From a virus, in IMG/VR virus record IMGVR_UViG_3300019889_000009, positions 1 to 64,000 of that record: 64,000 nucleotides of DNA; one strand, given 5' to 3'. The notes under the pieces are model-generated. The model had not been told where the DNA came from. It saw nothing but the letters and a program-made list of their open reading frames with translations, and searched no databases. Of the stretch, positions 3,628 to 62,228 are shown one piece after another (the stretch's first letter is position 1; each line of letters opens with the position of its first letter). Made by a program: the position numbers and the translations under genes.

Positions 3628-4275
3628 ATGCGCGCAATCCTTATGAACTTCGGTGACAACACACGAGTCGTCCATGACGTGATGAACATGCCGATCTCCG
3701 TCGGCATTGGAAAGATCCGAGAGTGCGACATGCACAAAGTGCACTATGACATGATCCGCAAGGGTCTCGCGACCGACACCTTGATGCTGGTGCCCGCGGA
3801 TGCGGAGATGCCTGCACACCTGTCCCTGATCATGGGGGTGTTGGAAGCAGTCGACACTGAACCCTATGACGAACTACTGCAGCGTGCGGTCGAAGTGATC
3901 GGTAAGGAGAATGTTAAGCTACGACCGAACCGCGACATGATCAGAGTTGCGTTGCGCGACCTCGCACGTGAACTCGTATCGCAAATTTTCGCAGGAGTGC
4001 AGCCGCCACCCCCGCGTGTCCCGATCAAAGAAGAGGGTGATGAAGACACGCGCAACGATCCCCCGCGCAAGCCTGAAAAAAACTTACCAGGGTCGAACGC
4101 GCCCCTTGCCGATCGATCGGATGCAGCCCTCCTTGCCGCCATTGGGGAGAAGCCTATCGATCCGGTGCCTGCAACTAAGCCTGCGATCGAGCGCGAAGTG
4201 CTCAAAACCAAACGCGTGAAGGCGAAACGGGAAACGATAACCCCCCCAAAGGGGCGTGCCAGGGAGCGCCTGTAA
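3628..4275 (+). CDS. Unknown protein between capsid and connectors
   Basis: 215 residues. The N-terminal half looks globular. The C-terminal half is low complexity, rich in Pro, Lys, Arg and Glu, and probably disordered. By position it may be a head or neck component, but I recognise no family. A GCAGGAGA lies upstream of the ATG. The last codons and stop (4273-4275) fall inside the structured repeat at 4262-4354, so its C-terminus is partly dictated by that element. Confidence 0.6.
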   Translation: MRAILMNFGDNTRVVHDVMNMPISVGIGKIRECDMHKVHYDMIRKGLATDTLMLVPADAEMPAHLSLIMGVLEAVDTEPYDELLQRAVEVIGKENVKLRPNRDMIRVALRDLARELVSQIFAGVQPPPPRVPIKEEGDEDTRNDPPRKPEKNLPGSNAPLADRSDAALLAAIGEKPIDPVPATKPAIEREVLKTKRVKAKRETITPPKGRARERL

Positions 4276-4354
4276 GCGGTTCGGGACCCCTCGACGTACA
4301 TCGGCCCCCGATTGCCCCCAAAACCGCTGTAGCGCGCTCCGTGCGACGAGCAAA
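4262..4354 (+). repeat. Structured junction repeat, copy A
   Basis: One of four related elements of about 92 nt. GGAGCGC at the left end pairs with GCGCTCC at the right, and AGCGGTT pairs with AACCGCT further in, with a C-rich interior. The conserved tail TGCGACGAGCAAA follows the stem. It spans the stop of the gene at 3628 and precedes the DUF4054 connector gene. Function unknown. Confidence 0.7.
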
Positions 4355-4382
4355 ACGCGTTCAAAAACGATGAAAGGACCCC

Positions 4383-4772
4383 ATGGCACACGTCATACCC
4401 ACATACGCCGATTTTATCGCGCGGTTCCCAGTTTTCGCTGATCGATCACAAGCGGTTATCGAAGCCCTGATCACGGAAGCGGCGGGCACTGTAGACACCG
4501 ATTGGCTGGAGCGCGACTATGCTCCCGCCATTTTATACCTGACAGCACATCTCCTTGCCAATGAGGAGAGTGAAGCGGGGGATGACGTCGACGTGGGTAC
4601 TGGCGTATCCAACGCTGTCGCCTCTGAGTCGTTTGGCGGGATGTCGATCAGTTACGCGGCTGCCGACGATGGTGGTTCGTTGAACGACTCCGAGCTTTAC
4701 GGTAACACAGAATTCGGGAGACGCTTCTTGCGACTCCTGCGCCTCAACAAACCAGCCGTGGTGATCGTGTAA
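4383..4772 (+). CDS. Head-tail adaptor, DUF4054 family
   Basis: 129 residues. The opening (YADFIARFPVFAD, then VDTDWLERDYAPAI and a YLTAHLLANE helix) is the signature of DUF4054, small alpha-helical connector proteins that form the ring under the portal. Length fits the family. An AAAGGA precedes the ATG. The stop overlaps the next start as TAATG, which suggests translational coupling with the following neck protein. Confidence 0.75.
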   Translation: MAHVIPTYADFIARFPVFADRSQAVIEALITEAAGTVDTDWLERDYAPAILYLTAHLLANEESEAGDDVDVGTGVSNAVASESFGGMSISYAAADDGGSLNDSELYGNTEFGRRFLRLLRLNKPAVVIV

Positions 4773-8310: not shown

Positions 8311-10318
8311 AAATGACGAAGATCTAGTTTCGCAGATCAAGATCGAGGGTACTCAGCAATCGTCCGACGATCTGAACAAGATGGCAGACGACGGCGTCTC
8401 CGCGTTTGATCGGTTAGGTGACGCGGCTAGAAAGGCGGGGGCACTCATTGCCTCCGGCTCCAAGACGATTTCCAATGCACTCGGGTCAATTGAGCCACCC
8501 AGTGCATTGACGGCTGAGCGGTTGGGAGAAATCGCTCAAGGGATGGGTGAGTTAAAGATCGCTGCAACTTCTTCGATCTCAGCCGTTGCTGGGTTTGCCG
8601 CTGGCGTCGCGGCCATTGGAGCAGTCGTTGTTGGTGCGGTTGCAGGGGTTGCCAAGTTTGCGGCTTCGACGACTAGGGCGTATCGTGAACTGAACGACTC
8701 GACTAGTGATAACGTCCGCCTTACTCAAGCTCAGGGTAAGGCTTCGGTTCAGTCTGCGAACCAATCTAACCAATATGGAGAATCACTCCGCAAGCTTCGT
8801 GAACAATTGCGGCTTGGTAAGATCACATACTCTGAGTACGGTCTTGCCATTCGTTCATTGAATGAAGACTTTGCGCGCCAGGCCGCGTCAGTCCGTCGTG
8901 TTCAAGCTGCGCAAGAAGAAGCACAGAAGAAAAACGATTTGGCGCAACGGGCTGAGCAAGACCGCGTCGCACTTAAGAAGCTTGTCGACATGTACGGGGG
9001 GCCGTTGACCACCAGTCTGATCGCTCTAGGCACCACCTACGATCAGATCAAGAAGCAAGCTGTCGACGCCTTCTCACCAGCCCTTTCAAACTTGATCGAT
9101 AGCATTGGCGCGATCATTGACAGGAACCGCACTGCGATCACAAAATTCATTGATGACACTTCGACGGCGTTGGCGGACTTCATCAAGAACAATGGTCCGG
9201 CGATTGAGAAGTTTTTCAGTATCATCATGGACATCATCAAGGGTGTTGGCACGACTCTAACTCTGATCGTGATCCCGCGCCTGGTTCATCTGATGGAGAT
9301 ACTTGACGCGATTGCTGTCAAGATTAACCAGGTGTTCGGCACAGAGTTCACGGGGGGAACACTGCTAGCTGCAGCCGCCATTTTGAAATTGACTGGTGGG
9401 TTCTCGACATTAAAGACTTTGATCCAAGCGACCATTGTCGCGCTCAGTGCGCTTGCTACGATTTTTAGTGTCAGCATCGTGACGGTGGGCCTTGTGGTTG
9501 TCGCAATCGGTTTGCTATTCGCCGCGATCATGTTGATTGACTGGACTGCATTCGGAGAACGTGCAGTGTCAGCCGGCACTAGGATACTTACTTTCTTTCA
9601 AACCATGCCAGCGAAAGTCGGTGCCTTTTTCTCAGCTCTATGGGAGAGCGTGAAGACGATGACCTCTGAAGCGGTGCAATGGGTCATTACAAAATGGACT
9701 GAATTTGTCACATGGATCGCTGCGATACCCGATCGCGTGTCTCAGATCTTCACTGATTTGTGGAATAGAATTAAGCAAAGCGCGACTGAAGCGTTTGATA
9801 GTCTCAAGACCACAATAAAAGGTTGGGTCGATAGTGTGCTGGGGTGGCTCAAGCCGATCTTGGACATGATGGCCAAAATCAATGCGCAGAGTGAAAGCTC
9901 GCCGGGTAGTGAGTCGGTTGGCGCATTCGCGGGTGGTGGTGCCGTTCGTGGTCCCGGCACTGCGACCAGTGACTCGATCCCGGCATGGCTGTCGAACAAT
10001 GAGTGGGTCATGCGCGCGAAGGCTGTGCGCAAGTATGGATCTGGTTTTATGCGCGCAGTCAATGAGGGTCGGTTCAAGATGCCGAAATTCTCAATGGGCG
10101 GTCTCAATATGATCTCACCCACGTCTCGCATTCGATACGCCGAAGGTGGTCCGGTTGGAGGATCATCAATGCAGCCCTTGAACCTGTCCCTGTTCGGCGA
10201 GGAGTTCAAGGGTTTGATGATGCCTGAAGATGTCGCGGGCCGCATGACCAAGTTTGCAATCGCACGTCAGTCACGTTCAGCAGGCCGCAAGCCGGCATGG
10301 GTTGGAGGTAATCGCTAA
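8303..10318 (+). CDS. Tape measure protein
   Basis: 671 residues from the ATG at 8303, chosen over a GTG at 8276 because it sits in the classic overlap with the upstream stop. Long alpha-helical and coiled-coil stretches, an alanine-rich hydrophobic part near residues 80-130, a strong hydrophobic stretch near 385-425 and a Gly-rich C-terminus (GGGAVRGPGT) are all usual. By the rule of about 1.5 angstrom per residue the tail would be near 100 nm, which is short. It overlaps the next gene by one base. Confidence 0.8.
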   Translation: MAENDEDLVSQIKIEGTQQSSDDLNKMADDGVSAFDRLGDAARKAGALIASGSKTISNALGSIEPPSALTAERLGEIAQGMGELKIAATSSISAVAGFAAGVAAIGAVVVGAVAGVAKFAASTTRAYRELNDSTSDNVRLTQAQGKASVQSANQSNQYGESLRKLREQLRLGKITYSEYGLAIRSLNEDFARQAASVRRVQAAQEEAQKKNDLAQRAEQDRVALKKLVDMYGGPLTTSLIALGTTYDQIKKQAVDAFSPALSNLIDSIGAIIDRNRTAITKFIDDTSTALADFIKNNGPAIEKFFSIIMDIIKGVGTTLTLIVIPRLVHLMEILDAIAVKINQVFGTEFTGGTLLAAAAILKLTGGFSTLKTLIQATIVALSALATIFSVSIVTVGLVVVAIGLLFAAIMLIDWTAFGERAVSAGTRILTFFQTMPAKVGAFFSALWESVKTMTSEAVQWVITKWTEFVTWIAAIPDRVSQIFTDLWNRIKQSATEAFDSLKTTIKGWVDSVLGWLKPILDMMAKINAQSESSPGSESVGAFAGGGAVRGPGTATSDSIPAWLSNNEWVMRAKAVRKYGSGFMRAVNEGRFKMPKFSMGGLNMISPTSRIRYAEGGPVGGSSMQPLNLSLFGEEFKGLMMPEDVAGRMTKFAIARQSRSAGRKPAWVGGNR

Positions 10319-10758
10319 TGGTCACTCTCGCAGATCCCACCTTACTCCGATTGACGGGAGTCGGGGTACCGCCATATTCCGCGCGTGGTTTAACGCAAAC
10401 GCTTGCCCCAATACAGCAGGCGTCGCAAAACAAACGCACAGTCAATGGCGCACTCAAAGACATTTCGTTCCCCGGTTTTCGCAAATACAGAAGCGCGATA
10501 TCGGGGGGCGATCAGCAGCCACCGAACGTTGATGGCATCTGGCCGGGCCTGACAATCACCGTCGACTGCATCTCTGAATTGCAGTACACCACAATTGGAG
10601 GAGCGCCTGCACGAACGATCGTTCGTGCAGGCGCTCCTCCAATTGGTTTGTACACACTGTACCGCCCACGGTTGACCATGAAGATCCTTGGCTTCAATGT
10701 GTCGACTGACGAATACGGAGCTCAAGTAAGTTGGGCAATGGATCTCGAGGAAGTTTAA
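10318..10758 (+). CDS. Tail-tip protein
   Basis: 146 residues. The C-terminal half carries CISELQY, a YRPRLTM segment and a SWAMDLEE end, a pattern seen in small tail-tip proteins encoded just after the tape measure. The middle of the gene is a 54-bp perfect palindrome, so residues about 92-109 are read from an inverted repeat and spell a near-symmetric Gly-Ala-Pro-Arg segment. The reading frame is intact. The start overlaps the tape measure stop. Confidence 0.5.
   Translation: MVTLADPTLLRLTGVGVPPYSARGLTQTLAPIQQASQNKRTVNGALKDISFPGFRKYRSAISGGDQQPPNVDGIWPGLTITVDCISELQYTTIGGAPARTIVRAGAPPIGLYTLYRPRLTMKILGFNVSTDEYGAQVSWAMDLEEV
10592..10645. repeat. 54-bp perfect palindrome inside tail gene
   Basis: Each 27-base arm is the exact reverse complement of the other with no spacer, centred on CGATCG at 10616-10621. 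Three mismatched bases outside it, a further five pairs form between 10584-10588 and 10649-10653. As RNA or single-stranded DNA it would fold into an extremely stable hairpin in mid-gene. Confidence 0.95.
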
Positions 10759-18386: not shown

Positions 18387-18701
18387 CTACCCCCCCACTG
18401 GACGATCTTTCCACTTGCGAAATTCAAATCCGCGCGATGGGTGTTCCGCCGTGTACCATATCGACGCGATTTCCAACTTCACTGTCAGTGACGGTGTATA
18501 TGTTGATCCGTTCCAGGTATGCTGTTGGATCATTTGGTCCGGTGGATAACCAGCGTCGATCAATTGTTTTGCGATCATGAGTAGTGGGTGGATCGTAGGT
18601 TTAGTCACGAGCTTTGTTTCAGGGACGGATGCGACAAAAAGCGCCCCGATTTGCCCATGGTGCGAGCACTTGACGTTCGTGCGAATTGTTCCAGTTATCA
18701 T
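18387..18701 (-). CDS. Unknown protein, minus strand
   Basis: 104 residues; the ATG is at 18701 with an AAAGGA upstream on the minus strand. Slightly basic, no membrane segment, no recognised family. It is last in a minus-strand unit with the aminotransferase and small DNA-binding protein, and the terminator lies seven bases after its stop. The structured repeat copy B precedes it. Confidence 0.5.
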   Translation of the reverse strand: MITGTIRTNVKCSHHGQIGALFVASVPETKLVTKPTIHPLLMIAKQLIDAGYPPDQMIQQHTWNGSTYTPSLTVKLEIASIWYTAEHPSRGFEFRKWKDRPVGG

Positions 18702-18765: not shown

Positions 18766-18859
18766 TTTGCTCGTCGCAGGGGGCGTGCTACAGCGGTTTT
18801 GGAGACAATCGGGGGTCCATGTCGGGGGGCCCCCCAATAACCGCTGTATCGCGCTCCCC
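18766..18859 (-). repeat. Structured junction repeat, copy B
   Basis: On the minus strand this copy reads left stem GGGGAGCG, then ACAGCGGTT, C-rich interior, AACCGCTGT, CGCCCCC and the conserved tail. About sixteen pairs form with two mismatches. It overlaps the last codons and TAG of the aminotransferase and precedes the minus-strand gene at 18701. Confidence 0.7.
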
Positions 18860-36673: not shown

Positions 36674-36676
36674 ACG

Positions 36677-36739: not shown

Positions 36740-36755
36740 AAAATGGAGAATGACA

Positions 36756-37330: not shown

Positions 37331-37527
37331 AATGGGAGGTGAGCACTCCTGATGACTTCAAGCCGATCTTCGGTGAAAGTCTCCATACTGTTTTTCGCGG
37401 CGTCCACGTTGTTATGACCTGGGACGACACATCTAATCAGTATGTCGTGCAAGAGTCAAAAACTCGTAAGGTAATCGCAGCTGCACGTCGCAAAGGCGAA
37501 TGTTATAAGCAGATGAGATCGAAGTAA
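37327..37527 (+). CDS. Small unknown protein 8
   Basis: 66 residues from a GTG overlapping the previous stop. Alternating strands (GVHVVMTWDDTSNQYVV) and a basic C-terminal helix. Ends just before ribozyme copy 8. Confidence 0.5.
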   Translation: MKWEVSTPDDFKPIFGESLHTVFRGVHVVMTWDDTSNQYVVQESKTRKVIAAARRKGECYKQMRSK

Positions 37528-37531
37528 AAAA

Positions 37532-37594
37532 GTCGAAACTCCCTACCAAGGGAGTCTTGCATGATTGGTCCCATGCAACTGATGATGACAGACC
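37532..37594 (+). ncRNA. Type II hammerhead ribozyme, copy 8
   Basis: Same sequence as copy 5. Stem III 37538-37544 with 37549-37555; cut after C37556; stem I 37557-37563 with 37572-37578; CUGAUGA 37579-37585; stem II GAC 37587-37589; pseudoknot GGTC with GACC 37591-37594. Confidence 0.92.
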
Positions 37595-37611
37595 ACGAAA
37601 GAGAAAACGAA

Positions 37612-38064: not shown

Positions 38065-38264
38065 CGGGTCTACACAAGAAGACAATCGCGTTTGACTGCA
38101 ACCTACGTCAACGTGCGTTGGAGATCGAGCGCATCGCATGTCGCGATTACCTCGATGATAACGCCGACGTCGCAGACATCGCACTCGATGAATTGCACAT
38201 TGACTCCGATCGATCGGATCAAGCCATTGCGCGGGTTTGTTCAATGCGCATTGCGTACCCATAG
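38061..38264 (+). CDS. Small acidic protein
   Basis: 67 residues in ATGA overlap with the gene before. Helical, with Asp-rich segments and two cysteines. No family is recognised; the last base of its stop is the first base of ribozyme copy 9. Confidence 0.45.
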   Translation: MTGLHKKTIAFDCNLRQRALEIERIACRDYLDDNADVADIALDELHIDSDRSDQAIARVCSMRIAYP

Positions 38265-38325
38265 TCGAAACGGCCCACGGGCCGTCTGCGAGGAGTGAGC
38301 ACCTCGCACTGATGATGACAGCTCA
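38264..38325 (+). ncRNA. Type II hammerhead ribozyme, copy 9
   Basis: Stem III ACGGCC/GGCCGU (38270-38275 with 38280-38285); cut after C38286; stem I UGCGAGG/CCUCGCA (38287-38293 with 38302-38308); CUGAUGA 38309-38315; stem II GAC 38317-38319. Here the loop reads TGAGC (38296-38300) and pairs with GCTCA (38321-38325): both partners have changed relative to GGTC/GACC, a compensatory change. Confidence 0.92.
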
Positions 38326-38343
38326 TAATGTTGGAGAACGACA

Positions 38344-38517
38344 ATGGCTAAAGCACCAGCGACCGACGCGATCAAGGTCGCAATGACGCACACCAAGGAC
38401 ACCAAGGGGACGTTCGTGTTTTCTAGCGATGATCCTGATGCTGCGGTGACGCAGTTATACGTTCGCCGTTCGGCAATGAAGACTCCGCGCGAAACGATCA
38501 CCTTGACGATTGAGTAG
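38344..38517 (+). CDS. Small phage protein, beta-rich
   Basis: 57 residues from the ATG at 38344. GTFVFSSDD, then AVTQLYVRRSAM and a TITLTIE end is a pattern found in a family of tiny phage proteins of unknown function. Possibly a single-domain anti-host factor. Confidence 0.5.
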   Translation: MAKAPATDAIKVAMTHTKDTKGTFVFSSDDPDAAVTQLYVRRSAMKTPRETITLTIE

Positions 38518-38526
38518 GAGGAGTGG

Positions 38527-38835
38527 TTGGCGAAGTATCGAGGCGACTATTACACCATTACGCTCGATGAGCGTGAGTTAGGTGGTGACATGACAACCCT
38601 TGCCGCATTTGATGATTGGCGTGAAGCGCAAGCGGCGTGGGAAGCGATGCCTGAACCTGAACAGGGTTGCATTTGGTTTGGTAAATGCAACCATATAGAC
38701 AAAAGCTACAGCGAAGCGATCTCGTGCAAGGGGCCAGACAAAGACCCGTTGTTTGAGCAATGGGTCCAGGCGATCGATGAGTTGATAGAAGAGGGCTCTA
38801 TTAAAGTGCGCGGTAAAAAAGCGACACGACACTAG
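38527..38835 (+). CDS. Unknown acidic protein, TTG start
   Basis: 102 residues from a TTG six bases after AGGAGG. Acidic, with Trp and Glu helices (DDWREAQAAWEAMPE) and two cysteines near the middle. No family is recognised. Confidence 0.45.
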   Translation: MAKYRGDYYTITLDERELGGDMTTLAAFDDWREAQAAWEAMPEPEQGCIWFGKCNHIDKSYSEAISCKGPDKDPLFEQWVQAIDELIEEGSIKVRGKKATRH

Positions 38836-38898
38836 TCGAAACTCCCCTACGGGGGAGTCTGCGAGGAGCGGCTCTCCTCGTACTGATGATGACAAGCC
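38835..38898 (+). ncRNA. Type II hammerhead ribozyme, copy 10
   Basis: Stem III ACUCCCC/GGGGAGU (38841-38847 with 38852-38858) capped by a UACG tetraloop; cut after C38859; stem I of eight or nine pairs (38860-38868 with 38874-38882); CUGAUGA 38883-38889; stem II GAC 38891-38893. Loop GGCT (38870-38873) pairs with AGCC (38895-38898). Confidence 0.88.
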
Positions 38899-38912
38899 AA
38901 CGGAGAACTACA

Positions 38913-39218
38913 ATGAAACGGTTACTGATTACAGCCGCATTGATCACACTCACGACCTCCGCGTTTGCGGACTCGTATGTGTCAACGTCGAACTGTGGGC
39001 ACTCGCGTGTCTACGGGTACAGTAAATGCAGCAACACAGTCACTTATGTTCCTGATCGCGACCGCAACCTCGAGCAAGAACGGCTCGACGCACTAGCGAT
39101 TGCAAAGGAGGACGCAAAGTGGGAAGCGTTTTGCAAGCCGTCGCGTTATGTCGACTCTTTCGGCATGACCAGGATGCATTTTGCACAAACTGGCTGTGAG
39201 TTTGGGAGGAGCGAATGA
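38913..39218 (+). CDS. Exported protein with signal peptide
   Basis: 101 residues from the ATG at 38913. A classical signal peptide: MKR, hydrophobic LLITAALITLTTS, and AFA before a probable cleavage site near residue 18-19. The mature part has four cysteines (SNCGHSR, SKCSNT, FCKPSR, TGCEFG) that may form disulfides in the periplasm. It could alter the host envelope or exclude other phages. Confidence 0.5.
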   Translation: MKRLLITAALITLTTSAFADSYVSTSNCGHSRVYGYSKCSNTVTYVPDRDRNLEQERLDALAIAKEDAKWEAFCKPSRYVDSFGMTRMHFAQTGCEFGRSE

Positions 39219-39397
39219 GATCGAAGTTGTCATGCCCCTGCGGGTCGGGCTTAGACTCGCAATGGCAGTTTGATGCGCGCGGTATCGAATTGTGCCGCAC
39301 GTGTCGCAAGTGTAATGACACCAAGATGTCGGGGTATCGTCGCGACGTGTTGACGAACTCCAATTATCAATGCGACGAACCAATTGAGGAGGATTAA
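39215..39397 (+). CDS. Zinc-ribbon-like small protein
   Basis: 60 residues in ATGA overlap. CPCGSG and CRTCRKC near residues 8-33 give a cysteine cluster suited to zinc. A small nucleic-acid or protein binder. The next start lies seven bases beyond its stop. Confidence 0.5.
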   Translation: MRSKLSCPCGSGLDSQWQFDARGIELCRTCRKCNDTKMSGYRRDVLTNSNYQCDEPIEED

Positions 39398-39403
39398 ATC
39401 ACA

Positions 39404-39574
39404 ATGGCACAGATCAGAGTCACCCTACGCGGGCAAGGCGGTGAGTTGGATTCCCGGGTCATCAATCCGTCTGAAGATGCATTTGAGGCGGAGGTTCGTC
39501 ACGCGGTGATGGATATTGTCCTCAATTGCGTGCTTGCCGCAGGCGATAGCATCACGATCGAAGAAATGGATTAA
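39404..39574 (+). CDS. Micro protein with acidic C-terminus
   Basis: 56 residues after GAGGAGG. Beta-helix-beta pattern (QIRVTLRGQGGELDSRV; a helix; SITIEEMD). Its stop lies two bases before ribozyme copy 11. No family is recognised. Confidence 0.5.
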   Translation: MAQIRVTLRGQGGELDSRVINPSEDAFEAEVRHAVMDIVLNCVLAAGDSITIEEMD

Positions 39575-39576
39575 AT

Positions 39577-39641
39577 GTCGAAACCCCCTATCAAGGGGGT
39601 CTGCCGCAATTGAGCACGCGGCACTGATGATGACGGCTCAA
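39577..39641 (+). ncRNA. Type II hammerhead ribozyme, copy 11
   Basis: Stem III ACCCCCU/AGGGGGU (39583-39589 with 39594-39600), loop ATCA; cut after C39601; stem I UGCCGC/GCGGCA (39602-39607 with 39618-39623); CUGAUGA 39624-39630; stem II GAC 39632-39634. Loop TTGAGC (39610-39615) pairs with GCTCAA (39636-39641), six pairs, again covarying with the common GGTC/GACC. Confidence 0.92.
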
Positions 39642-39655
39642 AGGAGAAAGAAACT

Positions 39656-40639
39656 ATGGCACATAAAGTAGAGAGTATGGCGTATGCGGGACAAGTTCCT
39701 TGGCATGGGCTCGGCGTCAACGTCGATCACAAGCAAACTCCCGCGCAAATGATGAAGGCGTCAAAGACCGATTGGAAGGTCTCGAAGCGCCAACTTCATT
39801 ACCCCGACACTGCAGGCAAGCTTATTCCTGCCGATGGGGAGTTCGCTATCGTTCGTGATACGGACGACAAACTTCTGACGACGGTCGGCGCCACATATAT
39901 GCCGGTCCAGAACGAGGAGATTTTTGATTTCTTCAAGAAGTTTACGACGGCCGGCAAAATGACAATGGAGACTGCGGGCTCCCTGTCGGACGGTCAATAC
40001 ATTTGGGCCCTTGCTCGTCTCGGCAAGGACTTCAAAGTCGGCAACGGCAAAGGAGGCGACGAGGTCAGACCGTATCTCCTGATCATGTCACCTCATGTTC
40101 ATGGCAAAGCCTTGATCATGCAGTACACACCCATTCGTGTGGTCTGCTGGAACACGTTGTCGATGGCTCTCGGTTCCGACCTCAAAGGAAAGAGGGGCGA
40201 GGGCTTCAAGATGGCACACTCACAGAAGTGGGATGCCAAGAGTGGTGAAGCGGAAATTGCATTGAACCTCGCGATGGTACAGACCGAGGAGTTCAAGGAT
40301 TGCGCGCAACACCTCGCGAAGAAGAAAGCGACCAAGGACACGGTTGACAAGTACTTCCTGTCGATCCTTACAAACCCTGGCAAAAAGATCGAAGGCACCG
40401 AGGAGTCCAAGAAGACTCCGACATTGCTTCCGAAGTTTCGTGCCGCGTTGGAGCGAGCTCCGGGTGCGACGATGCCATCTGCGCAAGGCACCTGGTGGGG
40501 TGCGTTGAATGCAGTCACCTATGTTATCGACCACGAAGTTGGCAAAGATCGCCAAACTGCGTTGCGAGGAGCATGGGTCGGCAATCACCAGAAGACGAAG
40601 CTGCGAGCGCTTCAGCTGGCGATTGAAGGAGCGAAGTAA
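39656..40639 (+). CDS. DUF932 (TIGR03299-like) protein
   Basis: 327 residues, usual length. The opening MAHKVESMAYAGQVPWHGLG, a WKVSKRQLHY stretch, YMPVQNEEIFDFF and the CWNTLSMAL motif are all signatures of the phage/plasmid family DUF932. Function is not established; such proteins are common in phage early regions. It is the largest gene of the ribozyme operon. Confidence 0.75.
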   Translation: MAHKVESMAYAGQVPWHGLGVNVDHKQTPAQMMKASKTDWKVSKRQLHYPDTAGKLIPADGEFAIVRDTDDKLLTTVGATYMPVQNEEIFDFFKKFTTAGKMTMETAGSLSDGQYIWALARLGKDFKVGNGKGGDEVRPYLLIMSPHVHGKALIMQYTPIRVVCWNTLSMALGSDLKGKRGEGFKMAHSQKWDAKSGEAEIALNLAMVQTEEFKDCAQHLAKKKATKDTVDKYFLSILTNPGKKIEGTEESKKTPTLLPKFRAALERAPGATMPSAQGTWWGALNAVTYVIDHEVGKDRQTALRGAWVGNHQKTKLRALQLAIEGAK

Positions 40640-40678
40640 ACTACACCTGATGATGTAAACAGTAACGGAGTAAAGAGA

Positions 40679-41095
40679 ATGCCTAAACCAATGACCATGA
40701 CAATCGAAGTCGAGGAGATCGCCTTCGGTCGCGTGTGGAGAACCCTTGATCAAATGCAGGGGGTGATAACGTTGAAGATGCACGGCACCGGGCCCAAGCC
40801 TAATAAGGGGTCCCCTGTAGCGCGTGCGTCGTCAAAGAAGGGGGACACGGTTACGTGCGTCGTCCTCAAGGCTCTGGCTCATGGTAAGCCGGAAAACAAA
40901 GCAGCATTGATTGATGCTGTGGTTGCTGCGGGTAAGGCGGCGACGTCATTTCCCGACTCGATCAGTAAACTGAAGAAAGCGAAGCACATTACCAACCCAT
41001 CGTCGGGGGTATTTAAGATCACCGTCGCGGGCGCTAAGTATCTCTCAACTGTCTGCAACGGTGCACCGAAACAGGAGTCCAAGTCCAATGGCTAA
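40679..41095 (+). CDS. Possible winged-helix protein
   Basis: 138 residues. The C-terminal 90 residues (ALAHGKPENKAALIDAVV, a short linker, then VFKITVAGAKYL) suggest a winged-helix-like fold. Slightly basic overall. It overlaps the next gene by eight bases. No named family is recognised. Confidence 0.45.
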   Translation: MPKPMTMTIEVEEIAFGRVWRTLDQMQGVITLKMHGTGPKPNKGSPVARASSKKGDTVTCVVLKALAHGKPENKAALIDAVVAAGKAATSFPDSISKLKKAKHITNPSSGVFKITVAGAKYLSTVCNGAPKQESKSNG

Positions 41096-41441
41096 ATCGT
41101 CATTCATTCGACCATATCACTATATCGATAAAAATCCTGTTATCGATAAAGTCCGAACGATGCTGCAAGATGTCGGTCTGATCAACAAGCTTGGTATCGT
41201 TGCAAACCTCTCGACAATGAACAAAGCAACATTCGAGGGGTGGTTTGACGGCGACGTGAAAGACCCACGTCACTCGTCAATCGCACGCGTGACGGAATCT
41301 GTCGGCTATGAACTGACGCTGCGCAAGCAGCGTACGATCAAGTTGGACGAGGAGTTGGCCGCCGCTAAGGAGTGGCGTGCGGAGCAACGCAAAAAGGCGA
41401 ACGGCAAAAAGAAGCCTGCTGCGAAGAAGAAAAAGAAATAA
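41088..41441 (+). CDS. Small helix-turn-helix protein
   Basis: 117 residues from the ATG at 41088. NLSTMNKATFEGWFDGD near residues 45-61, followed by SSIARVTESVGYEL, has the helix-turn-helix pattern of Xre-like regulators. The last 25 residues are almost all Lys and Ala, a DNA-binding tail. It may repress or activate phage promoters. It is followed directly by ribozyme copy 12. Confidence 0.5.
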   Translation: MAKSSFIRPYHYIDKNPVIDKVRTMLQDVGLINKLGIVANLSTMNKATFEGWFDGDVKDPRHSSIARVTESVGYELTLRKQRTIKLDEELAAAKEWRAEQRKKANGKKKPAAKKKKK

Positions 41442-41505
41442 GTCGAAACGGGCCTACGGGCCCGTCTGTCACGATTGATCACGTGGCACTGATGATGACA
41501 GATCA
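41442..41505 (+). ncRNA. Type II hammerhead ribozyme, copy 12
   Basis: Stem III ACGGGCC/GGCCCGU (41448-41454 with 41459-41465) with a UACG tetraloop; cut after C41466; stem I of seven pairs with one G-U (41467-41473 with 41482-41488); CUGAUGA 41489-41495; stem II GAC 41497-41499. Loop TTGATC (41475-41480) pairs with GATCAA from 41501: another covarying pseudoknot. Confidence 0.9.
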
Positions 41506-41517
41506 AGGAGAAGTAAC

Positions 41518-45740: not shown

Positions 45741-46574
45741 ATGCCACAGAGTGCAATCGAAACAGTACTATCGAAAGCTACCAAGATCAAGCAGGGCGCG
45801 AAGGAGGATCGACAAACGTTCCTGATCGCGCTTGGCAATGGTATTCAGGACCTCACTGATAAGCAGTGGGATGTCCTCGGCGAGGGTGACCTCGGCGACG
45901 AGTGCCAGAAGTGGGCGAACGAAGCAACGAAAGCGATCAAGGCGAAGAAGACCGTCAAGGATTTTTCGGATGTCGGCAAGGTCAAGCCGGATGCCGACGA
46001 AGACGGTGATGACGACAAACCGCCACGTCGCGGTCGCGGTCGTGACGCCGACGGAGAAGCTGATGACGATGACGACAAGCCGTCACGTCGCGGTGCTGCG
46101 AAAGAAGATGACGACGATGACAAACCTGCTCGTCGTGGTCGCCGCGACGCCGAAGAAGCCGATGACGACGACAAGCCGGCACGTCGTGGTCGCGCGGCGA
46201 AGGAAGAAGAAGCCGATGATGATGACAAACCAGCGCGTCGCGGTCGCGGTGCGAAGGATGATGATGACGACAAGCCCGCACGTCGCGGTCGTGCAGCGAA
46301 AGAAGACGATGACAAGCCGGCACGTCGCGGGGCGGCATCGAAGGAGAAGGAAAAGTCGTCGGGCATCAAGCAGTCGGGTACGGGAGTCAAGAACTCGATC
46401 AAGCTCGCGATCCTCGATGACCTTAAGATCTCCGTCGACGACCTGGTGAAGAAGTTGGGCAAGGGCGGCGCCTCCGTGTCAAAGGTCACGGTGTCGAACA
46501 TTCGCGCGGAGTTTCGTCACACGTTGAAACTCCTGCACGATGAAAAGGTCAACTGCGCGAAGTTGGAGATCTGA
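45741..46574 (+). CDS. Winged-helix-like protein with charged repeat
   Basis: 277 residues. Residues 1-75 are a helical domain with a TFLIALGNGIQDL helix. Residues about 85-200 are seven or eight repeats of a DDDDKPARRGR type, rich in Asp, Lys, Pro, Ala, Arg and Gly, and certainly disordered. The last 60 residues (SIKLAILDDLKISVDDL, then VSKVTVSNIRAEF) look like a winged-helix DNA-binding domain. The same repeat occurs in the SSB candidate at 54819. It is four bases from QueC. Confidence 0.6.
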   Translation: MPQSAIETVLSKATKIKQGAKEDRQTFLIALGNGIQDLTDKQWDVLGEGDLGDECQKWANEATKAIKAKKTVKDFSDVGKVKPDADEDGDDDKPPRRGRGRDADGEADDDDDKPSRRGAAKEDDDDDKPARRGRRDAEEADDDDKPARRGRAAKEEEADDDDKPARRGRGAKDDDDDKPARRGRAAKEDDDKPARRGAASKEKEKSSGIKQSGTGVKNSIKLAILDDLKISVDDLVKKLGKGGASVSKVTVSNIRAEFRHTLKLLHDEKVNCAKLEI

Positions 46575-46577
46575 CCC

Positions 46578-47303
46578 ATGCCCCTGCGAGCACTCGACAT
46601 TCAAGACTCACTGGTACTGTTCTCGGGAGGAATGGACAGCACCATCGCTCTATTCGATCGCCTGTCGCGTGCTCGCAGGGAAGGGGGTCAGGTTCACGCC
46701 CTGACCTTTTCCTACGGTCAGCGTCATTCGTCGGAAATAGGACACGCACGCCTGATCATGTCACGCGTCGCGACGTCGAGTCTGTACGGCCCGATTATGG
46801 GTCGGTTCATCACGCACAGAATTCATATGCCCGCATTCGGGTCACTCCTTGCCGGCGAACCCGTGATGAAGTATGAGAACGTCGAGCAGGCTGAACAAGC
46901 GGCCTTTGACAACTCATTCGTTCCGTATCGCAATATGATCTTCCTGACAGTTGCTGCGCAATACGCGTACAGCCTTGGAGTCAATATCATAGCGACGGGT
47001 TTGCGAGGGGGCTTCCCCGATTGTACCAGTGAGTGGGAAGCGCACATGGCTGACATGTTGCGGGAGTCCGTGCCGTCACATCCTATTCAGATGCGAACGG
47101 TGACCCATCAATCGCGTGCGGACTGTTTGACGTTCGCAATGGGCATCCCCGAATGTATCGATGCGCTCGCGATCAGCATGACGTGTTTCGAGGGGTCAAC
47201 TCCCCCCTGCGGGCATTGCCTCCCGTGCCTCAAACGTGCGCAAGGCTTCTCCTCGCTTGGGTTGTCAGATCCCCTTGAAACGCCCCGATACGGGCCTCGT
47301 TAG
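46578..47303 (+). CDS. queC: 7-cyano-7-deazaguanine synthase
   Basis: 241 residues. The PP-loop SGGMDS at 16-21 and YGQRHSSEI fit the adenylating fold. GHCLPCLKRAQG near the end with CFEGSTPPC gives the four-cysteine zinc site. It makes preQ0 from 7-carboxy-7-deazaguanine, step four. No amidotransferase extension is fused, unlike the archaeosine-making phage QueC. Repeat copy C begins at its stop. Confidence 0.85.
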   Translation: MPLRALDIQDSLVLFSGGMDSTIALFDRLSRARREGGQVHALTFSYGQRHSSEIGHARLIMSRVATSSLYGPIMGRFITHRIHMPAFGSLLAGEPVMKYENVEQAEQAAFDNSFVPYRNMIFLTVAAQYAYSLGVNIIATGLRGGFPDCTSEWEAHMADMLRESVPSHPIQMRTVTHQSRADCLTFAMGIPECIDALAISMTCFEGSTPPCGHCLPCLKRAQGFSSLGLSDPLETPRYGPR

Positions 47304-47395
47304 GGGGCGCCACAGAGCGGTTTTAGGGGTCCCCCGCATATGGGGCCCCCGAATGCCCCCAAAACGTCCCCAGCACGCCCCCTGCGACGACGAAA
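47303..47395 (+). repeat. Structured junction repeat, copy C
   Basis: Between queC and folE. GGGGGCG and CGCCCCC pair; the inner TTTT/AAAA also pairs. It holds the common ACAGAGCGG and AGCACGCCCCCTGCGACGA blocks. Its centre codes in frame as an N-terminal extension of the folE reading frame, but the real start is later. Confidence 0.7.
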
Positions 47396-47405
47396 GGCCC
47401 CCCAA

Positions 47406-48005
47406 ATGACGATAAAGCCCCCCCGAACGTCCCCCCATGACGCGATCGTTAAACAGTTGTTAAAACTGATCGTACCGGACCCCGAACGCGAGGGGCTGGC
47501 CGACACCCCATTTCGCGTCCTGCAAGCGTGGCAGGAGTGGACCGAAGGCTATCACGTCGACACCGATGCACTCTTGAAAACATTCGAGGATGGTGCAGAG
47601 AGTTACGACGAGATGGTTTTTGTTGGAGCGATCCCGTTCTACTCGACGTGCGAGCACCACATGGCTCCGTTCTTCGGTCTTGCGCATGTCGCGTACATGC
47701 CGGGCAATGGTCGTATCGTCGGACTGTCGAAGATACCCAGGTTAGTTGACGCATTCGCACGACGCCTCACTGTGCAGGAGCGTATCACGACGCAAATTGC
47801 TGACACGATGAATACAGTATTGAGACCAAGAGGAGTCGCAGTGCTCATGCAGGCGCGCCATATGTGCGTCGAGAGTCGTGGTGTAGCGAAGCCGGGTACT
47901 ATCACGACTACAAGTGCGGTCCGGGGTTTGTTCAAAACTGACGCGGCCGTGCGATCGGAGTTTCACAGTCTAGTCGCTTTGCAGAAAGGTATGGGCAATG
48001 GTTAA
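47406..48005 (+). CDS. folE: GTP cyclohydrolase I
   Basis: 199 residues from the ATG at 47406 (after GAAAGG); a longer frame would run back into the repeat. CEHHMAPFFG at about 82-91 supplies the zinc Cys and His; VGLSKIPRLVDAFARRL and MCVESRG are conserved active-site segments. It opens GTP to dihydroneopterin triphosphate, step one of preQ0 synthesis. It overlaps dpdA by eight bases. Confidence 0.85.
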   Translation: MTIKPPRTSPHDAIVKQLLKLIVPDPEREGLADTPFRVLQAWQEWTEGYHVDTDALLKTFEDGAESYDEMVFVGAIPFYSTCEHHMAPFFGLAHVAYMPGNGRIVGLSKIPRLVDAFARRLTVQERITTQIADTMNTVLRPRGVAVLMQARHMCVESRGVAKPGTITTTSAVRGLFKTDAAVRSEFHSLVALQKGMGNG

Positions 48006-54829: not shown

Positions 54830-56138
54830 GACCGGGAGTAAGAAAGACAAGGGCGGGTCCAAGGGTTCGTCTTTTGTGTACAAGAAGCGCAATGCTGACG
54901 ACGTGAAGAAGCGGGCCGAACAAACTGGCGGCCGGTTTGACTCACCGTTCAAGCAGGGCTTCGACGTGTTCCGCCCGAAGAATGGGGAGTCGCAGGTCCG
55001 CATCCTCCCTGCTTCATGGGAAGACCATGATCATTATGGGTTCGATGTTTGGATGCATCGCTTCGTCGGTGCTGACAATTCGAACTATCTATGTGCGAAC
55101 AAAATGCTGGGCAAGAAGTGCGCAGTGTGCGTCGAGCAGAAACTCGCGAAAGACGCGGGTGAAGATCAGGAAGCGAAAGATCTTGCACCCGTCAAGCGAA
55201 GCGTCGTGTGGTTGATCGATCGCGACGACAAGGCCGATCCACCGGTCCCGCAGTTGTGGGAAATGTCGTGGACGCAAGATCGCGATATCGCGGCACTGTG
55301 CCACACCGAGCGTACGGGCAAGATACTCCTGATCGATCACCCGGACGATGGCTATGATATCATCATCAAGAAGACTGGTCAGGGTCTCAAGACACGATAC
55401 TCATTCATCATTGACCGGGAGTCTACCCCGATTTGTGATGACGTCGACGACCAGGACGATATCCTCGCGTTCATCACTGAGAACCCAGTGCCTGATACTC
55501 TGCGATACGACACCTTCGAACACGTCGAGAAGCAAATGTCGGGTACCTCGGAGTCCAAGGACGAGGAACTCGACGATGACAAGCCCCGCGGTCGCAAGCG
55601 CAGTCGTGATGATGACGACGACGAGAAGCCGCGTGGTCGTGGTCGCGCTCGTGATGAAGATGATGACGAGAAGCCTCGTGGTCGGCGTGGTCGTGATAAA
55701 GACGACGATGACGATGATGACCGTGCTTCGCGGCGCCGTCGTGACCGTGACGATGATGACCCGGATGACGAGACAACGGAGCGTGGCAGTCGTGGTCGTA
55801 GTCGCGCTAAAGACGATGATGATGATAAACCGGCACGTCGTGGTCGTGGCAGAGATGCTGACGATGATGACGACAAGCCGGCACGTCGCGGTCGTGAACG
55901 TGCGGACGAGGATGACGACGACAAGCCGAGAGGCCGTCGTTCTCGGGAAGAGCCTGAAGACGATGATAAGCCAGCGCGTCGAGGGCGTGGTCGCGATGCG
56001 GATGATGATGACGACAAACCCGCCCGCCGTGGTCGCGAGCGAGTTGATGAAGAAGAAGATGACAAACCGTCGCGACGTGGCCGCGCTCGTGACGATGATG
56101 ACGCCGAGGAGCGCCCTGCTCGCCGCAGTCGGCGTTGA
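54819..56138 (+). CDS. ssDNA-binding protein with long charged repeat
   Basis: 439 residues. Residues about 1-240 fit a phage gp32-like single-strand DNA-binding core: RFDSPFKQGFDVFRPKNGES, a zinc-type CANKMLGKKCAVC, and YDIIIKKTGQGLKTRYSF. The C-terminal 190 residues are a repeat of Asp runs, KPARRGR and KPRGR units: a mixed-charge disordered tail much longer than the acidic tips of usual SSBs. Such tails recruit partners or drive condensation. It lies between mediator and RecA. Confidence 0.7.
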   Translation: MVARTGSKKDKGGSKGSSFVYKKRNADDVKKRAEQTGGRFDSPFKQGFDVFRPKNGESQVRILPASWEDHDHYGFDVWMHRFVGADNSNYLCANKMLGKKCAVCVEQKLAKDAGEDQEAKDLAPVKRSVVWLIDRDDKADPPVPQLWEMSWTQDRDIAALCHTERTGKILLIDHPDDGYDIIIKKTGQGLKTRYSFIIDRESTPICDDVDDQDDILAFITENPVPDTLRYDTFEHVEKQMSGTSESKDEELDDDKPRGRKRSRDDDDDEKPRGRGRARDEDDDEKPRGRRGRDKDDDDDDDRASRRRRDRDDDDPDDETTERGSRGRSRAKDDDDDKPARRGRGRDADDDDDKPARRGRERADEDDDDKPRGRRSREEPEDDDKPARRGRGRDADDDDDKPARRGRERVDEEEDDKPSRRGRARDDDDAEERPARRSRR

Positions 56139-59794: not shown

Positions 59795-60027
59795 TGCGCA
59801 AGCGGCCATCACGTCGTCGCCTCAAGGCGCGTTTTATGCGCTATCAGCGGATTGCCCTTGAAGATGTCTACGAACGCGACCTTGTGGATTTCGTCAAGCG
59901 TTATGGGTATGAGACTGACCACACCGCAATGATCCGTAGATACTTTAAGCCAGTGCGTGTCGTTCTAGAGGAGTTCGGTGTGAAAAATTTGCGAGCCGCA
60001 TTTTTAGGTTTAGGAGATGACCTATGA
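59794..60027 (+). CDS. Unknown small basic protein
   Basis: 77 residues, in one-base overlap with SbcD. Arg/Lys-rich N-terminus (RKRPSRRRLKARFMRY) and helical rest. It lies between the SbcD and SbcC genes, where an accessory DNA-binding role is possible. Confidence 0.45.
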   Translation: MRKRPSRRRLKARFMRYQRIALEDVYERDLVDFVKRYGYETDHTAMIRRYFKPVRVVLEEFGVKNLRAAFLGLGDDL

Positions 60028-60296
60028 AAGTTCACGCAATGCTTACGATCGTGCCCGAGACAAGATCAGTTAAAACATTTTGCGGTCGGTGGGGTAAGGC
60101 GACAATGGTCAGCACCGACAAGCCATTCGAGATCACAGCACCGTCGGGCACCACACTGACGGTGACGCAATCAACTGAGAACGTGGTCAAGCCATTGAGT
60201 GAGCAGCGGCAGCGTATTGTCGCGTACGCCATCCCAAATGACGCGGTGACGTGCTACAACTGCGTGCGTGTGTTCCGAAAAGCGATCAGGGCCTAA
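60024..60296 (+). CDS. Unknown protein with CxxC
   Basis: 90 residues in ATGA overlap. Beta-strand rich; TFCGRWG and TCYNCVRVF hold cysteines that may bind zinc. Its stop shares one base with the SbcC start as TAATG. Confidence 0.5.
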   Translation: MKVHAMLTIVPETRSVKTFCGRWGKATMVSTDKPFEITAPSGTTLTVTQSTENVVKPLSEQRQRIVAYAIPNDAVTCYNCVRVFRKAIRA

Positions 60297-62137
60297 TGAT
60301 GCCACACCTAGAGTTCGCGCGTATCACACTGATTGACTTCAAGGAGTTCAGGGGTGGGCCGCACAAGCTTGACCTCGCGAAGATCGGACTCGGCTGTCAC
60401 TTCATGTCAGGGGAGAACCGGGTTAACCCGCGATTGGGTAGCAACGGTGCGTCGAAGTCGTCGGTGTGGGACGCATTGTGTTGGTGTCTGTACGGGCGTA
60501 CGGTGTCGGGCCTGCGGGGGATGGACCTGCGAACGTGGGAGACCAAGAACCATCCGCGGGTGCTGGTTGATGTTTATGTCGACGGTGCATTGATGACCGT
60601 GACCCGATCGACGACCACCAATGGTCTGTGGATCAATGACAAGGTGGTGACGCAAGAGAGTGTGGACAAACTGATCGGGCTATCGTTCGCGACGTTTCAG
60701 CACACACTGTACTTTGCGCAGAAGGCCGACACGTTCCTGGACCTGAAGTCTACGGCAAAGCTGGCACTGCTGTCGGAGACACTCGATCTCGATCGATGGG
60801 AAGAGCGCTCGAGGGCCGCGAACAAAAAAGCCAGTGACTACGAAGTCGCCATGTCGAGTCTTATGCATCAGTCTGCAAACCATGAGTTCATGATCTCCGA
60901 CGCGCGCAAGACACTCGACGACCTCAAAGACAAGAGTGCTGGTTGGATGGACGAGCAGGCCGCAGCCCTCGAGACGAAAGAGAAGAACCTGCGACTGCTG
61001 TTAGCGGCTGTCGAACGCGCGCAGTTGGAGCTCGGTAACTACGATCTGGCCTATGACGGAGCCGAGACTGAACTGCGACATGCCCAGCGCGAACTCGACA
61101 AGGGTGTGAATGCGTTCAGTGCCGCGGCTGCTAAGTATGCGGAGATGGGTGCGGAGTTTGATGCAGCTGACCGTGAACGCGTGCGGCTTGAGCTGGACCT
61201 GCGCGACATGCTCGACGGCGACAAGTGCCCGACATGCGGCCAGACCCTCAAGGGTGACCACAAACTCCACGCGGCGAAAGCCCGCAAGGCGCTCAAGGAG
61301 CAGACCGAACGCGTGAAGAAGGCGAAGCGATCGTGGGAAGCATCGGGTACTGCTCGAGGAGCAGCCCGCATGAAGAAGGAGCGTTGGGAACATGACGTGC
61401 GGGTCTATCGTGCGAAGTCTGATGAAGCTGTCGACGGCCGCACGCGGGCGCAGGGCAAAGTGCAGGAGTTCAAGGCCGGTTACAAGGCACTGAACGATCA
61501 GACGGCCGGACAGACCGACAATCCGTATTCACCCCTGATATCGAAAGCGCGAACGCAATGGAAGACCCTGATCAATCAAGCAGACGAATGTGACCGCCTG
61601 ATCAAGGTCGCTGAACAAAAGCGCGAACGTGCCAAGTATTGGGTCAAGGGGTTCCGCGGCATCAGACTGTATCTGTTGCAGGAGGTGTTGGACGAATTGT
61701 ACGCTGTTACCCAAACCCTGTTGCCGCAAATCGGTCTCGACGATTGGGAAGTACGATTTGATATCGAGCGCGAGAGCAAGGCGGGGGACGTGACGTTGGG
61801 TCTCAATGTCGAGGTGATGAAAATGGGAATGCAAAAGGGCGTCAAGATGGAGTCGTGGTCAGGCGGTGAGGGCCAACGCATAAGGTTGATCGGTGCCATC
61901 GCCTTGAGTGAAGTGTTGCTGCGTCGTGCAGGAGTCGAATGCGATTTGATGATCCTCGACGAGGTCACCAAGCACATGTCGCCTGAGGGCGTCAACGAAA
62001 CCATTGAGTATTTGAATGAGCGCGGCCGTGACAATCAAGTGTTCTACATCGATCACCAGGCGATCGAGAGTTCTCGTTTCTCTTCCGTCGTGCACGTCGT
62101 CAAGAGCGATCAGGGGGCCCGAATTGTCATTCGCTAG
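60296..62137 (+). CDS. SbcC/gp46-like SMC ATPase
   Basis: 613 residues from the ATG at 60296. Walker A GSNGASKSSV near 48, a zinc-hook CPTCGQ near 310 with coiled coils on both sides, signature SGGEGQRIRL near 521 and Walker B LMILDEVTK near 551 are those of Rad50-type proteins. It partners the nuclease at 58790 in repair and recombination. The stop TAG runs into repeat copy D. Confidence 0.85.
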   Translation: MMPHLEFARITLIDFKEFRGGPHKLDLAKIGLGCHFMSGENRVNPRLGSNGASKSSVWDALCWCLYGRTVSGLRGMDLRTWETKNHPRVLVDVYVDGALMTVTRSTTTNGLWINDKVVTQESVDKLIGLSFATFQHTLYFAQKADTFLDLKSTAKLALLSETLDLDRWEERSRAANKKASDYEVAMSSLMHQSANHEFMISDARKTLDDLKDKSAGWMDEQAAALETKEKNLRLLLAAVERAQLELGNYDLAYDGAETELRHAQRELDKGVNAFSAAAAKYAEMGAEFDAADRERVRLELDLRDMLDGDKCPTCGQTLKGDHKLHAAKARKALKEQTERVKKAKRSWEASGTARGAARMKKERWEHDVRVYRAKSDEAVDGRTRAQGKVQEFKAGYKALNDQTAGQTDNPYSPLISKARTQWKTLINQADECDRLIKVAEQKRERAKYWVKGFRGIRLYLLQEVLDELYAVTQTLLPQIGLDDWEVRFDIERESKAGDVTLGLNVEVMKMGMQKGVKMESWSGGEGQRIRLIGAIALSEVLLRRAGVECDLMILDEVTKHMSPEGVNETIEYLNERGRDNQVFYIDHQAIESSRFSSVVHVVKSDQGARIVIR

Positions 62138-62228
62138 GAGCGTCACAGAGCGGTGCGACGCGATCAGGGGGGTATCGGCCCATGCAAACGCGTAAAATCG
62201 CCCCAGCGCGCTCCGATCGCACGGCAAA
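62137..62228 (+). repeat. Structured junction repeat, copy D
   Basis: GGAGCG pairs with CGCTCC; ACAGAGCGGT and AGCGCGCTCC blocks are shared with the other copies. It lies between the SbcC-like and NusG-like genes; the probable NusG-like start codon at 62182 is inside it. Confidence 0.65.

Follow-up and report, generated by a model that had tools for sequence, protein, structure and literature searches.

A dispersed element family at gene junctions of a tailed phage, with near-identical arms in one related genome

Introduction

How should one understand a short hairpin-like element that recurs at distant gene junctions of a single phage genome, when sister phages carry elements of unrelated sequence at some of those junctions? 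The question is raised by virus record IMGVR_UViG_3300019889_000009 (71,798 bases), whose positions 1 to 64,000 form the stretch analysed here (the window). A first-pass annotation of the window, made from its letters and open reading frames (ORFs), described four copies of a structured RNA element at gene junctions, here called E1 to E4, and offered a processing site, an antitermination site or a translation regulator as possible functions. We find that E1 to E4 are a real dispersed element family, that copies within one related genome, G027, have near-identical arms, and that sister phages have unrelated families at a subset of these junctions.

Gene content marks the record as a tailed phage, with genes for capsid, head protease, terminase, tape-measure protein, helicase and DNA polymerase. 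In a rough ORF call almost all genes lie on the plus strand, the exception being a block at about 18.3-21.2 kb. The phage also encodes a GcrA-like regulator (L004 1394-2158, which is record position 64393-65157); we take GcrA-like proteins to be alphaproteobacterial cell-cycle factors, and the gene suggests an alphaproteobacterial host. A scan of cellular genomes gave a single relative of the capsid protein, on a Profundibacterium contig, at 53% identity.

Results

Four copies of one element

The four copies, each made of two arms flanking a centre, are placed as follows.

4262..4353, plus strand: E1 (5' arm 4262-4281, centre 4282-4319, 3' arm 4320-4353)
18767..18858, minus strand: E2 (5' arm 18858-18839, centre 18838-18801, 3' arm 18800-18767)
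47303..47394, plus strand: E3 (5' arm 47303-47322, centre 47323-47360, 3' arm 47361-47394)
62136..62227, plus strand: E4 (5' arm 62136-62155, centre 62156-62193, 3' arm 62194-62227)

Blastn, a sequence profile and a covariance model all bear out the family relationship, with the places and strands that had first been reported. By blastn, E1 matches E2 (E 2e-15), E2 matches E3 (3e-13) and E1 matches E3 (3e-7). E4 is reached by blastn only through pieces of 18 and 22 nt at chance-level E values (0.28 and 0.91), and its profile value of 8.5e-29 holds by construction, the profile having included E4. Its membership is independently supported because E6, the copy at the orthologous place in G027, matches a covariance model built without E6 at 46.4 bits (E 4e-12). 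Searched with the covariance model, the 71.8-kb record yields no fifth copy, the final 7.8 kb beyond the window included; the remaining matches are the antisense of the same four.

Each element is an imperfect inverted repeat with a core of almost constant length (93-94 nt). The 5' arm, of about 20 nt, ends in GCGGT plus one letter, and the 3' arm, of about 34 nt, begins with AAAA; the centre between them measures 38 nt in E1-E4, 40 in E5 (the second copy in G027) and 39 in E6. The sequence blocks by which the family had been described need correction. The GAGCG/CGCTC ends are exact in E1 and E4 and read GAGCG/CGCCC in E2 and GGGCG/CGCCC in E3. Block ACAGAGCGGTT is exact in E3 only (its E4 version ends in G) and block AACCGCTGT in E1 and E2 only, so that the pair of blocks is a composite, both being intact in none of the four copies. 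The tail TGCGACGAGCAAA, said to be frequent, is exact in two of four.

Arms and centres in a related phage

Related loci came from a capsid-protein scan (26) and a polymerase scan (12). R2, a covariance model built on E1-E5, was applied to 36 related records. Matches at E values up to 1 occur in nine of the 36 and are strong only in G027, where R2 finds two sense-strand copies: E5, which is part of the model, and E6, which is not. Homologues of the element, for which the first-pass annotation had proposed a covariance-model search, exist outside this genome, at orthologous junctions. E5 lies between the genes for a QueC-like protein and GTP cyclohydrolase, as E3 does, and E6 between SbcC-like and NusG genes, as E4 does; these copies have been kept although the flanking proteins have diverged to 54-70% identity.

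Within G027, the 5' arms of E5 and E6 are 100% identical and the 3' arms 97%, around centres that are 55% identical. Duplication, or conversion in a single tract, would have brought the centre with it, so that the arms can be inferred to be under selection by a trans factor common to both copies; near-identical arms around unlike centres are what would be expected of sites read by a phage-specific factor. Orthologous arms agree at 74% (5') and 85% (3') between E3 and E5, and at 78% and 71% between E4 and E6. The centres fall into two kinds: those of E1, E2, E3 and E5 are 71-80% alike and those of E4 and E6 69%, with 47-62% across kinds. E5 and E6 thus have the same arms around centres of different kinds.

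Other R2 matches were weak. The next best, in G026 (20.6 bits), is false, lying antisense inside a head-protein-like ORF; one in G002 lacks a second arm of the family and one in G004, at 24.2 kb, lies inside an ORF, and both were left out of the counts. Further weak matches occur in G030, G015, G021 and G025, and two in G032 led to the discovery of a separate five-copy family described below.

Gene junctions

The genes that border the four copies are these.

3628..4275, plus strand: ORF upstream of E1, its stop within the 5' arm; no PHROG found, C-terminal RERL also in the homologue in G004
from 4383: virion protein gene downstream of E1
minus-strand block: class-III aminotransferase-like ORF before E2, its stop inside E2
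18387-18701, in the same small minus-strand block: ORF after E2
46578..47303, plus strand: QueC-like gene upstream of E3 (stop 47301-47303)
47415..48005, plus strand: GTP cyclohydrolase (folE-like) gene downstream of E3, starting at ATG 47415 or at the in-frame ATG 47340 within the E3 centre
60251..62137, plus strand: SbcC-like gene upstream of E4 (stop 62135-62137); the 3' ends of its homologues bear a repeat in G027, G028 and G032
62182..62763, plus strand: NusG paralogue of 193 aa (NusG N-domain PF02357, 1.4e-11), its ATG at 62182 in the E4 centre; candidate trans factor

All four copies overlap or abut the stop of the upstream gene and precede a gene in the same direction, in agreement with the initial description. 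The stop codon is TAA 4273-4275 inside E1 and TAG 18790-18788 inside the 3' half of E2, most of which is read by the aminotransferase-like ORF; in E3 and E4 it is a TAG at the first bases of the element. The QueC-like and GTP cyclohydrolase genes (46578-48005), together with a radical SAM gene (30031-30747), may belong to a 7-deazaguanine (queuosine-type) pathway, perhaps for DNA modification.

The position of start codons bears on the proposal of translation control, in which the hairpin would mask start codons in the centre (E4, E6, possibly E3) until a ligand or protein opens it. The NusG ORF indeed starts within the centres of E4 and E6, and the E3 centre holds an in-frame ATG. For E1 and E2, however, the next gene starts about 30 and 66 nt further on and out of frame with the element, and the E5 centre has no ATG. 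Translation control is plausible only for E4 and E6, and perhaps E3, and as the function of the family we consider it distinctly improbable.

Fold and conserved pairing

The consensus fold of E1-E5 is a single hairpin with outer and inner helices and a third that extends into the centre. In this three-helix structure 85.7% of cells are paired; folds of single copies differ from one another. Changes on both sides of a pair occur at four pairs, where shuffles average 2.0 (36 of 500 reach four) and slid controls give at most one, and the covariation score of 0.212 is reached by eight of 500 shuffles, in a test biased in favour of the consensus structure by its derivation from the same sequences. 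An earlier version of the fold, with a pseudoknot and without the extension, showed no excess, and the pseudoknot (columns 46-49 with 77-80) was dropped, 40% of its cells being paired. Helix P2 is broken in E3 and E5, and E6 has the same letters there.

Pairing is conserved, and not clearly strand-biased. As it holds across E1-E5, it reaches beyond this genome, as do the homologues; the lack of both had been named as what would speak against the element. Against dinucleotide shuffles, the sense-strand folding z-scores are -2.65 (E1), -4.87 (E2), -1.09 (E3), -0.46 (E4), -1.40 (E5) and -0.59 (E6), so that the long stem attributed to the family is notably stable in two of the four window copies, E1 and E2, and not in E3 and E4.

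There is no T-run at the elements, as had been noted (by a terminator scan for E3 and E4 and by reading for E1 and E2), and none of E1-E4 has the GC stem plus T-run of an intrinsic terminator. At gathering scores over the whole window, Rfam 15 returns only Hammerhead_II, away from the elements: nine hits in tandem at window 35079-41507, ahead of small genes, with extra CTGATGA motifs in the same stretch. The hammerhead core motif is CUGAUGA, and no CTGATGA occurs in the elements, which are unlike hammerheads as first stated. Permissive Rfam scans were run on E1 and E2, with E3 and E4 covered by the gathering scan; they gave sub-cut-off matches only, the best at 8 bits for E1 and, for E2, mir-877 at 22.9 bits against a cut-off of 47, on the opposite strand. 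Hammerhead-like arrays are also seen in G027, G029, G004 and G032, by motif and self-similarity rather than by Rfam.

These results bear on two RNA-level alternatives. The elements might be intercistronic processing hairpins, cut by host RNase III or a similar enzyme, which would separate and stabilise neighbouring mRNAs and complement the hammerhead array at 35-41.5 kb. Their place between same-direction genes, the missing T-run, the conserved pairing, the long stem of E1 and E2, imperfect and interrupted by internal loops, and the hammerheads at other junctions of the same phage (in relatives, by motif) all suit such a role. RNase III reads mainly structure, and structure reading fails to explain why imperfectly paired arms should be identical in E5 and E6; moreover E3, E4, E5 and E6 are not unusually stable, and P2 is broken in two of them. 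Processing is possible, and we think it fairly unlikely. A small self-cleaving ribozyme of a new type, or some other catalytic RNA, would fit small elements at the gene junctions of a hammerhead-bearing phage that reach the cut-off of no Rfam family. Yet catalysis in cis does not account for arms that are nearly identical within one genome, strong model matches occur in only one of 36 related records, and no unpaired core can be defined from six sequences; this is the explanation that we regard as very improbable.

Unrelated families at shared junctions

Self-comparison of 12 records, with hammerhead-type arrays and coding repeats set aside, revealed further repeat families in sister phages.

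G028, at 0.6, 21.4, 36.7 and 50.9 kb: four copies, core AGACCCGGTTTCTGGGCCG
G032, at 20.1, 33.4, 47.8, 60.9 and 74.7 kb: five copies
G004, at 7.9 and 48.1 kb: two hairpins with the 3' arm in common

The G028 family, two of whose four copies differ by a few letters or in the flank and three of which lie at gene junctions, is unrelated in sequence to E1-E6. The families are unlike one another; a possible distant likeness to the elements, in the 3' arm, is confined to that of G032 (14.4 and 12.6 bits). G037, whose scores equal those of part of G032, was left out of the count. Dispersed or clustered self-matches also occur in G002, G014, G007, G033 and G035.

Three junctions recur among these phages. 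The junction after the SbcC-like gene is occupied in the window, G027, G028 and G032; that before the homologue of ORF 4383 in the window, G004 and G028; and that before the GTP cyclohydrolase gene in the window, G027 and G004. G029 has an orthologue of this last copy. At the ORF-4383 junction of G002 (about 23500, minus strand), the place of E1, a hairpin-like stretch starts at the stop TAG, and no repeat family was found to go with it. By eye, no such stretch is seen at this junction in G014, G007 or G019. The SbcC/NusG junction of G004, at which the ORFs overlap each other, holds no element.

Reuse of some junctions by unlike sequences argues against a small mobile inverted-repeat element with no function for the phage, as do the regular spacing in G032, the identical arms around unlike centres in G027 and the orthologous copies that have outlasted flank divergence to 54-70% identity. 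An inverted repeat in several copies, near stops and variable between phages, is what such an element would look like, and we hold this origin to be improbable.

Pattern scans of IMG/VR extended the search. One 28-letter pattern had 0 matches; AGCGGTT...CCCCGATTGNC matched 67 stretches, one of them an element (the E5 contig); AAAACGTCCCCAGCA matched 78, two of them elements (E5 and E6, on the same contig); and AAAACCNCTGTAGCNCGC matched 19, three of them G032-type elements. In the AAAACCNCTGTAGCNCGC scan two further sequences, found in two contigs apiece (L329/L335 and L330/L331), show complementary 5' arms of 8 and 10 letters, and L328 shows one of 7; in the AAAACGTCCCCAGCA scan L305 has a complement of 8 letters. 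None was counted as family. A phage collection contained no megablast match to window 1-25000, and an E2 query against it gave chance 19-mers only. The AT-rich contig L323/G043 bears repeats at 2.0, 2.7, 11.8 and 16.0 kb, three of the four having AAACGGATTGGAGAGGTTTT...AGTGTCTTTGTATGG in common, and one copy has a 12-bp hairpin resembling the inner helix of the element (R2 21.2 bits). It was not counted as a member, its own repeats sharing only the other half.

Direction and spacing

Copies run along the local genes in the window (4/4), G027 (2/2) and G004 (2/2), and clearly so for three of four in G028, where the 0.6-kb copy is ambiguous. Because most of these phages have nearly all genes on one strand, the informative cases are the G032 copies and E2, which is on the minus strand in the sole minus-strand block.

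Spacing was compared with random choices of junctions between roughly called ORFs; the p-values are not independent, some junctions being common by descent. Copies lie about 14 kb apart in the window, in G032 and in most of G028. The G032 gaps of 13.3, 14.4, 13.1 and 13.8 kb have a coefficient of variation (CV) of 0.037 (p 2e-5 linear, 0.0025 circular). In the window the smallest gap is 14.5 kb on a linear map (p 0.022) and 13.9 kb on a circular one (p 0.013); the CV of its gaps does not reach significance (p 0.15 linear, 0.06 circular). With one fifth of the record as the period, the window copies fall on a lattice (p 5e-4, a post hoc value after L/3-L/8 had been tried), of which one point, near 33 kb, is empty. 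A fifth copy there, on the 14.36-kb lattice, was rejected, the stretch being mostly coding and the model finding nothing in it. In G028 the gaps are 20.8, 15.3 and 14.2 kb (smallest-gap p 0.0035 linear, 0.30 circular), in G027 the copies lie 16.0 kb apart, and in G004 they misfit the spacing, at about 40 kb (36 the other way round).

Such placement brings in the strongest alternative, a dispersed double-stranded DNA site to which a phage protein binds: an operator, or a site for partition (centromere-like), replication, gyrase or genome organisation. The symmetry of the hairpin would then reflect dyad binding, and placement every 14 kb or so would matter more than transcription. The regular spacing in G032, the lattice fit in the window, the smallest gap of 14.2 kb in G028, folding without strand preference, the independence of the G032 copies from gene direction and the near-identical arms of E5 and E6 are all consistent with it. 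Set against it are the copies of the window and G027 that all follow gene direction, the G004 pair off the 14-kb spacing, the empty lattice point, the gap CV of the window, and the ORFs scanned (a subset), among which there is no ParB-like, repressor-like or similar match. A promoter for a phage RNA polymerase was also considered and set aside, as there is no RNA polymerase gene among that same subset.

The NusG paralogue

For the six phage NusG-like proteins, the best NCBIfam match is always RfaH, and always below its cut-off (TIGR01955; 44.8 bits against 144.5 for the window protein). The window protein also stays below the cut-off of the LoaP family (NF033641; 28.2 bits against 125). A UNCG loop common to all copies was not found at the border of arm and centre, where three of six have UNCG-like letters (TTCG in E1 and E6, TGCG in E4) and E2, E3 and E5 have none; the combination that marks the LoaP system, a family protein above cut-off with a UNCG-tetraloop hairpin, is therefore not present.

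The NusG paralogue occurs in both phages that bear the E family, and its ATG falls within E4 in the window and E6 in G027, with similar first residues (MQTRK and MTRK). It carries an N-terminal extension of 35 residues in the window and 38 in G027, with a net charge of +9 in both. Its predicted structure is poor (mean pLDDT 49), only a C-terminal barrel-like part exceeding 80. By profile, a NusG-domain gene occurs in five of 11 relatives searched; a protein scan of IMG/VR for NusG gave nine stretches, none of them a relative.

Other features of the window

A 70-bp near-perfect palindrome (window 10584-10653; 35-nt arms, 91% complementary, without a spacer) lies inside the tail-region ORF 10318-10758. 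Two different proteins, at window 45995-46352 and 55559-56117, contain repeats in which acidic D/E runs alternate with basic, KPxRRGR-like units; one of the two proteins is single-strand-binding-like by PHROG.

Discussion

We suggest, with a probability of roughly 0.28, that the elements are sites recognised by an elongation or antitermination factor of the phage, with the RfaH-like NusG paralogue as the candidate reader; a DNA-level site stands level with this reading. Recognition of the arms in trans is something we infer, and the paralogue as the reader and the effect on elongation are guesses. E1-E4 would be copies of one cis-acting element, in which two conserved arms flank a 38-nt centre that varies by locus, and the arms would be read by a phage-encoded, sequence-specific factor evolving together with them. 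In this reading the element most likely acts during transcription, folded into a hairpin that forms either in the nascent RNA or in the non-template DNA, single-stranded within the transcription bubble. At gene boundaries the hairpin would recruit the factor, and RNA polymerase would stay processive on very long phage operons. The phage's own NusG paralogue, with its basic N-terminal arm, is a candidate for that factor and could regulate itself, since its ORF begins within the centres of E4 and E6; regular spacing would suit reloading of the factor along the transcript. Of the functions first proposed, antitermination has the most circumstantial support, from the RfaH-like paralogue and the shared arms.

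Several observations weigh against elongation control. The antisense strand folds about as well as the sense strand, except in E5 (+1.47 antisense), and of the G032 copies three of five run along the genes, or two of five with the family turned, so that at least two of five oppose them. With both strands folding equally, the element may act as RNA or as DNA, and the direction of E2 and the G032 copies does not decide between the two. For the first-pass term "structured RNA", conserved pairing is in its favour, and these two observations, with the broken P2 of E3 and E5, are against it. The argument from the arms rests mainly on the E5/E6 pair, as window arms vary from 61 to 91%. The E5 centre is as near to E2 (80%) as to its orthologue E3 (78%), and the centre follows the locus only at E4/E6, where it is partly coding as the start of the NusG ORF. 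In a scan of the E3 and E4 regions, no promoter- or terminator-like site coincides with either element. The ops sequence, which we take to be GGCGGTAGNNT, is found in none of the four elements, and the 11 window matches with at most one mismatch compare with 8.3 expected by chance. By profile, the NusG-domain gene is absent from G032 (75.6 kb) and G028 (55 kb, possibly partial), both of which have families of their own, and it is present in G002, G014 and G007, where self-matches occur and no family was recognised. Since G032 and G028 have families without the gene, the paralogue could at most be the reader of the window and G027 family, and perhaps that of G004.

A bolder version of this idea, and one that we consider rather unlikely, is a phage-wide relay, in which sites about 14 kb apart, with arms co-evolving with the basic-armed NusG paralogue, would reload the factor onto RNA polymerase along an operon tens of kilobases long, and the unrelated families at the same places in sister phages would have other readers. 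If this relay is real, distributed antitermination or genome organisation of a new kind would be at work.

How host RNA polymerase is kept going over tens of kilobases, or how intervals of a genome are marked, is known for few model phages. The elements turn over in sequence and yet keep some of their places and, in several phages, a rough spacing. Together with an RfaH-like protein that starts inside one copy, they make a testable system with a named candidate pair.

Comparison with known systems

Among the open-licence matches listed, judged by title and the start of the abstract, no paper describes such an arrangement. The SPBRE operators of SPbeta, the centromere repeats of N15 and the stoperators of L5 are several similar, partly palindromic sites, shorter than the elements and read by phage proteins. 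The elements resemble them as several similar, partly palindromic copies per genome, and differ in being longer and in that no binding protein was found among the ORFs scanned. Phage T7 has several RNase III sites, intercistronic hairpins of irregular shape whose structure is what the host nuclease reads. Here, too, the hairpins are irregular and intercistronic; unlike those sites, they keep the sequence of their arms in the G027 pair.

RfaH with ops and LoaP with the dfn hairpin (PMC7593976, PMC12691694) share with this phage a NusG paralogue, cis sites that are hairpin-like and long runs of genes in one direction. They use a single site per leader, whereas the elements are repeated along the genome and lack ops. 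A hammerhead paper (PMC3088659) and a NusG review (PMC7819879) served as further sources for comparison.

The put RNA of phage HK022 is a structured RNA of about 70 nt, present in two similar copies oriented with transcription, whose effect extends over at least 10 kb (PMC9378689). It resembles our elements as a structured phage element in similar copies along transcription. put consists of two stem-loops downstream of early promoters and uses no dedicated protein, whereas the consensus of the element described here is one imperfect hairpin between distant genes, with single-copy folds that differ, and its arms look as though they are read by a protein.

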